This document shows positions 9,546-11,550 of a DNA stretch of 42,081 bases, piece by piece (position 1 is the stretch's first letter; the number at the start of each line of letters is the position of its first letter). Position numbers and translations under genes: made by a program. The stretch is from an uncultured bacterium (lineage in GTDB: Bacteria > DUMJ01): assembly GCA_937958695.1 (NCBI GenBank), contig CALGNK010000037.1, positions 1-42,081 of the forward strand. The letters run 5' to 3'. The notes under the pieces were generated by a model. The model ran no database searches. It was not told where the DNA came from and worked only from the letters and a program-made list of their open reading frames with translations.

Positions 9546-10394
9546 CTAAGACAATTTAACTGCTTGTCTTAATAACTGAATACTGGCTAGAATACCTTCT
9601 TCCGAAGATGCCTTACCTTCAAACTCTATAGAGAGATAACCATTATAACTAACATCTTTAAGCATCCTCACTATCTTCACATAGTCAGGATTAAGATTAA
9701 AATCATAAAATATTCCACCACCCCAATAGGTCTTTGCATGAACAAGGACAGTATAGGGAATAAGGGCAGATAATTGTTCATAAGTGTTCTCTCTAAAGTT
9801 TCCACAATCTAAACAAACCTTTAACCATTTACTATTAACGCCATTTATTATATCTAATACACCTTTAGCGGAATAGGTAAGACCCCAATGATTTTCTACA
9901 GCAAGGACGATACCATACTGACTAGCAAACTCTGTACATTCCTTGAAACATTCTATATTCCACTCTACCCCTTGCTCATAAGAATATCCGGGTAATGGTG
10001 GTTCTTTACCATCTAAAGCCATCAATTCTATAAAGTCTTTGACCGTTCCCCACCTGCCTCCAAAGACTCTTATAATTGGAGCTCCTAATTTAGATGCTAT
10101 AACTATCCACTTTTTAACCTTTTCTACCTCTGATCTCCTTATTTCTGAGTCGGGATTTACAAAGTTATTATGAACAGAAAGAGCATAGATATCCTGCGAA
10201 TTAGAAACTGCCAGTTGTTTGATCTTTGAAACATACTCATCACTATCTGAGGTAAATTGAACAGCTAAAAGTTCTAGACCATCAAGCCCATACTTATATG
10301 CTAATGGGAATATATCTTCTAAAGTAAGATTAGCCTCTTCTGACCTTCCATAGTTGAACCTTTTAAAAGAATAACTGGAGCTTCCTATACGCAT
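9546..10394 (-). CDS. Sugar phosphate isomerase/epimerase-like TIM-barrel protein (AP endonuclease 2 superfamily)
   Basis: The product is 282 aa. It follows the xylose-isomerase-like barrel: MRIGSSSYSF at strand 1, DGLELLAVQF at strand 2, PIIRVFGGRWG, and metal-site residues in VLAVENHWG (Glu), VCLDCGNF (Asp), TVLVHAKTYWG (His) and YLSIEFEGK (Glu). This set is typical of sugar or cyclitol isomerases and epimerases such as IolE/IolI relatives; the substrate is not deducible. AGGAGGGATGTTG precedes the ATG. It starts 26 bp after the end of the crcB reading frame, so it should be the third gene of the fluoride-riboswitch operon. It converges on the NapH-like gene with 14 bp between the stops. 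Confidence 0.82.
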   Translation of the reverse strand: MRIGSSSYSFKRFNYGRSEEANLTLEDIFPLAYKYGLDGLELLAVQFTSDSDEYVSKIKQLAVSNSQDIYALSVHNNFVNPDSEIRRSEVEKVKKWIVIASKLGAPIIRVFGGRWGTVKDFIELMALDGKEPPLPGYSYEQGVEWNIECFKECTEFASQYGIVLAVENHWGLTYSAKGVLDIINGVNSKWLKVCLDCGNFRENTYEQLSALIPYTVLVHAKTYWGGGIFYDFNLNPDYVKIVRMLKDVSYNGYLSIEFEGKASSEEGILASIQLLRQAVKLS

Positions 10395-10420
10395 TCAACA
10401 TCCCTCCTAAAATCTTTATT

Positions 10421-10788
10421 TTACTTTACTATTCTAGCACCAAACTCAATAGCCCCTAAGGATAGAATAAGATTAAGAACTATATTATTGAAAGCCAAAA
10501 GATGCTTTCCAGATTTAAGATAATTAATAGTCTCTACCCCAAAGGTAGAAAATGTAGTGAATGCTCCCAAAAACCAACCATAATAATAGTTTTAGTTATA
10601 TCAGATATCTCTAGTCTTTTACTGAATAGGGTTAAAAGTATCCCTGCTAAAAAACAGCCGATTACGTTTACTACAAGGCTTACAAACGGGAATTTCCCTC
10701 CAAAACTTAGCTTAACCCATTGAGATATTACATACCTCATTATCGCACCAAAAAAGCCTCCAATACCAACTGCAACTATCTCGCTCAA
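10421..10788 (-). pseudogene. crcB: crcB fluoride channel gene with a single-base frameshift
   Basis: The first 74 or so codons read as Fluc/CrcB: a GGFFGAIMRYVIS opening, then FVSLVVNVIGCFLAGIL, then TIIMVGF. The frame then runs into WEHSLHFLPLG and a stop. Adding one T to the T5 run within 10568-10576 restores GFLGAFTTFSTFGVE, the most conserved CrcB motif, and the frame continues to a TAA at 10421-10423 with a typical final membrane helix. The repaired gene would be 122 aa, the normal family length. CrcB dimers export fluoride through the membrane. The gene lies second in an operon behind a fluoride riboswitch, which confirms the identity. The shift may be a sequencing error in a homopolymer, a real inactivating mutation, or slippage-dependent expression. 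Confidence 0.92.
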
Positions 10789-10800
10789 AGGTATTCCCTC

Positions 10801-11427
10801 CTACTTTAACTTTAAGATTTCAATAGCCCTTATCCAACTATCTGCTTCTACTCCGATTGGTTCCTCTCTAAACCTATAATCCTGCTTTCTTATAAATTCT
10901 AAAAGTTGATCCGAGAGACCTTTAAGTTTCAAGGCGGTTAACTCTAGAAAGAGATCATTAACTTCTCTATCCTTAGAAATTGCTAAGACCTTAGAAAGAT
11001 GAAGCATACAAAGACCATCAGAGTCTTTATAAATCTCATAGAATTCGTAATCTCTTATATTTTTTATCAATTCTTCTAGTATTCTATTCTCCATATCTTC
11101 TGAAACCTCGCATATAAGGCATCTCCTATCAGATAATATTCTTTGAACGTTTAGAGTCTTATAATAAGCATCTACAAGGTCTTTGTATATAATAGAGATA
11201 CCTAAAGTATAACCCTTATATCCAAACCTAAGTAGTTTCTTAGAGTGTTCTTTACAAAATCCACCTGAACTTATTAGTTTTGCCCTAAGATTAGTATCGT
11301 TTACGCTCTCATATAAAAGACTATCTATATATCTGTCAGTGTATGTCTCTAACAAGAGACATACTGGACAACCTCTCCCTTTCATAGCATCTAACAATTC
11401 ATAATAGGTATTATTCCTTCTATTCAT
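10801..11427 (-). CDS. DUF6062-like double CxxC/CxxH protein, first gene of the fluoride operon
   Basis: The product is 208 aa, cytoplasmic, with no membrane segment. Two similar halves are visible, each with CxxC followed about 35-50 residues later by CxxH. The first is GCPVCLLLE with GGFCKEHSK, the second RRCLICEVS with GLCMLHLSK. This arrangement suggests two zinc (or Fe-S) sites and fits the family I recall as DUF6062. The C-terminal third is helical and basic. It is the first gene after a fluoride riboswitch and lies 12 bp before crcB, so it should be induced by fluoride. Function is unknown; a role in fluoride resistance or in repairing a fluoride-sensitive metalloenzyme is inference. 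The start follows GAGGGG and AATTATG. Confidence 0.68.
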   Translation of the reverse strand: MNRRNNTYYELLDAMKGRGCPVCLLLETYTDRYIDSLLYESVNDTNLRAKLISSGGFCKEHSKKLLRFGYKGYTLGISIIYKDLVDAYYKTLNVQRILSDRRCLICEVSEDMENRILEELIKNIRDYEFYEIYKDSDGLCMLHLSKVLAISKDREVNDLFLELTALKLKGLSDQLLEFIRKQDYRFREEPIGVEADSWIRAIEILKLK

Positions 11428-11451
11428 AATTACCCCTCTAATATATAAAAA

Positions 11452-11521
11452 AGCTCCTACAGAACATCTGTCCTGTAGGAGCTATCAGCCAACATAAGGC
11501 AATCAGGCGAGCTCCATCGCC
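11452..11521 (-). ncRNA. Fluoride (crcB-type) riboswitch with transcription terminator
   Basis: On the minus strand the aptamer starts GGCGATGGAGCTCGCC (11506-11521). It continues through a TTGCC...GGC helix (within about 11490-11502) and ends TGATAGCTCCTACAG (11473-11487). This is the order of conserved elements in the fluoride riboswitch, including the GGAGCT/AGCTCC pairing. The same 3' segment forms the 5' arm of an 11-bp terminator hairpin (11473-11483 with 11452-11462) followed by a run of T. Fluoride binding would hold the segment in the aptamer and let transcription continue into the DUF6062-like gene, crcB and the isomerase gene. Confidence 0.95.
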
Positions 11522-11550
11522 TAATAATATAATAACATAATAGTCAATCC

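Follow-up and report, generated by a model that had tools for sequence, protein, structure and literature searches.

A probable fluoride-inducible operon of an uncultured bacterium points to DUF6062 proteins as recurrent members of bacterial fluoride regulons

On the minus strand of a contig from an uncultured bacterium, a fluoride riboswitch with its terminator is followed by a gene of the DUF6062 family, by crcB, and by a gene for a TIM-barrel isomerase. There are good grounds to regard this arrangement as a fluoride-inducible operon in which DUF6062 is a recurrent member of the fluoride regulon that probably acts as a protective factor beside fluoride export, and in which the isomerase is a passenger. 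The window, i.e., the whole stretch of DNA that was analysed (42,081 nucleotides), lies on contig C37 of a genome of 2.09 Mb. The same genus includes two other metagenome-assembled genomes, both designated as 'bacterium', and the remaining listed relatives share only the domain with the source. The order of the genes is identical in the three genomes of the genus, that is, in the source and in the two sister species. The DUF6062 gene starts 42 nt past the aptamer, with crcB and the isomerase gene close behind, and the coordinates of all the features are given in the table.

Table. Features of the riboswitch operon, with positions in the window
Feature	Coordinates	Strand	Evidence
Probable extended -10 promoter element	11529..11537	-	TG-T-TATTAT, read directly from the sequence
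Fluoride riboswitch aptamer RF01734	11469..11530	-	38.9 bits against a gathering score of 34 (E 2e-7), full length; helices covary
Intrinsic terminator (expression platform)	11446..11483	-	Stem and U-tract; overlaps the 3' strand of the aptamer pseudoknot
DUF6062 protein, 208 aa	10801..11427	-	PF19538; two C-x2-C-x(33-34)-C-x2-H modules
crcB (Fluc fluoride channel), two frames	10421..10788	-	PF02537 for both halves
Xylose-isomerase-like TIM-barrel protein, 282 aa	9546..10394	-	PF01261; four metal ligands

The leader has the layout of a classical fluoride ON-switch, as predicted from its sequence. All three helices of the aptamer, including the pseudoknot, are backed by covariation in an alignment of 24 related aptamers, where 99% of the cells are paired and double changes amount to 43 versus 12 in shuffles; the pseudoknot columns (16-20/73-77) are 100% paired. 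The terminator consists of a 14-bp stem with seven GC pairs followed by a U-tract, located at 11452-11483 on the minus strand, and when folded alone it reaches -24 kcal/mol (z = -7.6); its hairpin is kept in the sister species, with sequence changes near the loop. The strand GCUCC of the aptamer pseudoknot sits within the 5' arm of the terminator, and both sequence and folding indicate that the two structures, which have this strand in common, are mutually exclusive, in agreement with the aptamer and overlapping terminator that had been proposed in the original prediction. Upstream of the aptamer there is an element, TGnTATNAT, that is also present in genomes G001 and G002 and in front of another riboswitch of the source genome, the one that precedes a MoxR gene (see below). 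This element was not listed by the consensus promoter scanner because the program demands a match to the -35 region; transcription probably starts at about the 5' end of the aptamer, a position that would be set by this extended -10.

The product of the first gene, which had been described as a DUF6062-like protein with paired CxxC/CxxH sites, is indeed a member of this family, given that it matches PF19538 with 82.3 bits (E 4.6e-23) over a cut-off of 27 and carries the paired signature of the family in two ligand sets, C20/C23/C58/H61 and C103/C106/C140/H143. These eight residues are 100% invariant among 53 DUF6062 proteins, and no other polar residue is fully invariant in this set, a pattern that would argue mildly against a conventional enzyme and in favour of an adaptor, a chaperone or a sensor. 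Residue E40 is invariant among the riboswitch-linked members, not among all others. The two halves of the protein align as homologues in hhalign (probability 98.1, E 1.2e-13), revealing a tandem duplication of the module given in the table, and the three cysteines and one histidine of each predicted site suggest structural zinc or, possibly, an Fe-S centre. The AlphaFold (AF2) model is all-helical, with a pLDDT of 90.8 and a pTM of 0.83. The search with this fold gave no match (best E 0.37 in the PDB and 2.4 in the viral library) and the sequence search of the PDB returned nothing credible; therefore, the biochemical function of DUF6062 is not readable from these comparisons. Two other identities were considered and discarded, i.e., Pfam Elf4, with an E of 0.0033 that is below the cut-off, and an NCBIfam zinc-finger, for which the match was weak. 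The name DUF6062 was not found in the literature that was searched, and the protein may have been listed earlier as an unnamed hypothetical cargo. The cargoes of fluoride riboswitches were reportedly surveyed by Baker et al. in 2012.

The main evidence for a role of DUF6062 in the fluoride response is its recurrence next to fluoride riboswitches. Scanning genomes with an alignment of the family gave 14 loci, ten of which were compared with Rfam; four of these ten, three from Omnitrophota and one from Elusimicrobia, are preceded on the same strand by a fluoride riboswitch, at distances from 62 nt to 1.2 kb. DUF6062 was also searched for in genomes of Omnitrophota (237), Elusimicrobiota (150) and Bacillota (300), which had been sampled according to phylum and irrespective of riboswitches, and the flanking DNA of the matches was taken. 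A custom covariance model made from 24 aptamers and run on 57 loci (706 kb) produced 43 matches and left the range from E 4e-5 to 0.1 empty; some members of the model are DUF6062-linked aptamers and hence match by construction, and independent Rfam scans gave the same picture for most loci. A riboswitch on the same strand was found within 2.5 kb upstream for 26 of the 55 DUF6062 genes, and 17 of these 26 occupy the first-gene position, as a rule 2-71 nt from the aptamer; inspection of the coordinates adds riboswitch-linked genes in G633 and G658 (97-99 nt) and in G739 (about 1.6 kb). The survey proposed with the original prediction thus shows the recurrence in at least 26 of 55 genes and at least four deep lineages, namely the source lineage, Omnitrophota, Elusimicrobiota and Bacillota, which gives PF19538 riboswitch-linked members in no fewer than three phyla besides the source lineage. 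One of the Bacillota genomes (G718) shows the order riboswitch-DUF6062-crcB, as in the source operon. At locus L043, the first fluoride match was rejected as the DUF6062 leader, being about 6 kb off and on the opposite strand; the likely leader is an aptamer located 62 nt upstream that scores below the Rfam threshold. About half of the DUF6062 genes, from gut clostridia, Caldisericota, Lentisphaerota and Nitrospinota, are devoid of a nearby fluoride riboswitch, and therefore the basic function of the family is not fluoride-specific.

The frequencies obtained from the phylum samples allow this association to be quantified. DUF6062 is present in 6 and the riboswitch in 29 of the 237 Omnitrophota genomes, and the two are adjacent in all four genomes that have both; in the 300 Bacillota genomes they are present in 36 and 119, respectively, and adjacent in 16 of the 20 that have both. 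Co-occurrence in the same genome is modest (Fisher p 0.002 for Omnitrophota and 0.03 for Bacillota). The probability of the adjacency arising by chance, under a null of uniform placement, is about 1e-10 for Omnitrophota and 5e-36 for Bacillota, values that are indicative since related genomes are not independent. On the DUF6062 tree, in which many branches are long or weak, the riboswitch label requires at least eight changes, and this history could reflect either repeated gain or an old linkage with losses. As judged by genomic association, DUF6062 truly belongs to the fluoride regulon of bacteria, of which it is a recurrent component.

Several genes recur in and around the DUF6062 fluoride operons. 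They encode enolase, a Na+/H+ antiporter (NHE), an MFS transporter, a dynamin-like GTPase, a protein of the MutS-V type and a small protein with zinc-ribbon and HEAT regions. According to a 2024 review, the usual cargo of fluoride riboswitches includes enolase, antiporters and pyrophosphatase (PMC11139923), and the fluoride operon ppaC-uspA-eno-gpmA-crcB of Enterobacter cloacae FRM has been experimentally verified (PMC5533749). The source operon shares with operons of the latter type the RF01734 aptamer, the overlapping terminator and the crcB cargo, and the related DUF6062 operons likewise carry genes for enolase, a phosphoglycerate-mutase-like protein and a Na+/H+ antiporter; on the other hand, the source operon differs in that DUF6062 is the first gene, the isomerase gene is the last, and crcB is frameshifted in the assembly.

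Regarding this last gene, crcB is present as the expected cargo; however, in the source assembly it is split by a deletion of a single base in a T run near position 10570. The frame at 10534-10788 stops early and the C-terminal half runs on in another frame to about 10421, so that a full-length crcB frame is absent from the source assembly and PF02537 matches two pieces in two frames. In the sister species crcB is intact (122/125 aa). At the gap, which falls at reference codon 72 of the alignment, the sisters have GGC TTT TTG or GGC TTC TTA, and the source has GGTTTTTGG, with one base fewer. The differences from the sister sequences are mostly at third codon positions on both sides of the gap, and the persistence of this bias past the gap indicates that the frameshift is either recent or an assembly error. 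No second copy of crcB was found elsewhere in the source genome. It was also observed that purifying selection is still visible downstream of the deletion in this only crcB of the genome.

The third gene had been predicted to encode an isomerase or epimerase with a divalent-metal site, and its product matches PF01261 with 106.8 bits (E 1.9e-30; cut-off 31.1). Residues E167, D196, H219 and E259, which we take to be the usual metal ligands of the family, were located in the sequence, and relatives in the PDB are 4ovx, 7bvs and D-tagatose 3-epimerase. The protein resembles AP_endonuc_2 members and sugar 3-epimerases (4ovx, D-tagatose 3-epimerase) in its TIM barrel and its four metal ligands; unlike them, it falls below every NCBIfam equivalog cut-off, and for this reason no substrate was assigned. 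Its homologues in 19 other genomes that have both the riboswitch and DUF6062 are not close to riboswitches, and the isomerase was accordingly rejected as a recurrent fluoride gene; most likely, it is a genus-specific passenger of the operon. Induction of the isomerase by fluoride would follow from its position alone and says little about its function.

Three other readings of these data were weighed. It is very improbable that the isomerase belongs to the fluoride response and bypasses or replaces a step of sugar metabolism that fluoride inhibits, in spite of its being the third gene of the operon in the three genomes of the genus and retaining all four metal ligands, given that none of the 19 other genomes with riboswitch and DUF6062 has a homologue near the riboswitch and that the source genome encodes several more members of the family elsewhere. 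The idea that both genes may represent new fluoride-response functions is supported for DUF6062, on account of its recurrent link, and unsupported for the isomerase, and the bypass of a fluoride-sensitive enzyme found no direct support in either protein. Even less credible is that the adjacency of DUF6062 and the riboswitch is a coincidence, or the outcome of hitch-hiking in stress islands, with no fluoride role. Such a view could appeal to the many DUF6062 genes that have no riboswitch and to the often mosaic nature of fluoride operons; nevertheless, the repeated first-gene position at a short distance past the aptamer in several phyla, the several changes needed on the tree and an adjacency far beyond chance largely refute it.

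A third reading, which we regard as rather unlikely, is that DUF6062 is a fluoride-sensitive housekeeping factor of which the riboswitch-linked copies provide extra doses or resistant paralogues, in the manner of enolase and pyrophosphatase. In four gut-clostridial genomes (G731, G606, G633 and G658) DUF6062 is encoded twice, and just one of the two genes is linked to a riboswitch; such pairs may point to a general factor that was enlisted against fluoride stress, or else to a factor impaired by fluoride. Likewise, enolase, an enzyme inhibited by fluoride, is a partner of DUF6062 in three Omnitrophota. The occurrence of ppaC, eno and gpmA in the E. cloacae FRM operon (PMC5533749) also favours this possibility. 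Against it, DUF6062 is a single gene in the source genus and in most of the Omnitrophota matches, and no obvious conserved acidic site of the Mg type is seen in the protein. Its invariant residues are cysteines and histidines, which are not typical targets of fluoride.

Several other fluoride loci were noticed in the course of this analysis. Besides the one upstream of DUF6062, the source genome has two fluoride riboswitches. The second (L030:8726-12187, contig C44) precedes a gene for a MoxR-type AAA ATPase and two genes for proteins with no Pfam match, an unusual fluoride cargo that is conserved in two species, the source and a sister species (L029:3409-6865). The third (L031:9401-11027, contig C8) precedes the genes for a 134-aa zinc-ribbon and HEAT-repeat protein and for an MFS transporter; homologues of the former recur in Omnitrophota (L036) and Bacillota (L141, L143), again within fluoride operons. 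The zinc-ribbon/HEAT protein of the source is 37% identical to one from an Omnitrophota DUF6062 operon, and the MFS proteins are only distantly alike. An unusually large fluoride regulon is seen in Bacillota bacterium Ch109 (G068; L043, L145, L148, L167), where elements resembling the fluoride riboswitch number about ten and are nearly all confined to two contigs; two of these elements precede DUF6062 copies, and MutS-V, UspA-like, antiporter and dynamin-like genes are nearby. In an Elusimicrobia locus (L042:140-712) the riboswitch is followed by a truncated DUF6062, and the end of its frame resembles the N-terminal part of enolase, KRIVGREILDSRGNPI; apparently, this is what a deletion has left of an operon of DUF6062 and enolase. 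Finally, at L144:6684-6988 and L039:7654-7932 divergent fluoride riboswitches lie back to back, and one of each pair feeds DUF6062.

Considering DUF6062 as a protective member of the fluoride regulon, the anatomy of the leader and the established biology of these riboswitches suggest that cytoplasmic F-, together with Mg2+, would stabilise the pseudoknotted aptamer, and that the stabilised aptamer would block the terminator, allowing read-through into the DUF6062, crcB and isomerase genes. CrcB would export F-. DUF6062, predicted to be a soluble and all-helical protein with an internal duplication and with a pair of 3Cys-1His sites that would most likely hold structural Zn(II), would probably be an intracellular protective or maintenance factor that operates beside export, a role that fits the genes for enolase, a Na+/H+ antiporter and a dynamin-like GTPase in its company. 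The zinc-dependent protection suggested in the original prediction may be inferred from the invariant Cys/His ligands. More tentatively, and somewhat short of an even chance, DUF6062 could represent a form of fluoride tolerance other than export based on a fold absent from the PDB, in which the duplicated 3Cys-1His metal module would work, for instance, as a metal-loaded chaperone, adaptor or sensor for the protection or repair of metalloproteins damaged by fluoride in Bacillota, Omnitrophota, Elusimicrobiota and the source lineage.

Fluoride riboswitches have served to guide the study of fluoride physiology and led to the discovery of CrcB/Fluc and CLC-F. As far as the literature searched shows, DUF6062 gains here its first functional context, and as a recurrent riboswitch cargo that lacks a solved fold it offers a testable entry to fluoride tolerance beyond export. 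Since its pairing with the riboswitch recurs in unrelated phyla, DUF6062 very probably has a hitherto unrecognised place in the bacterial response to fluoride.
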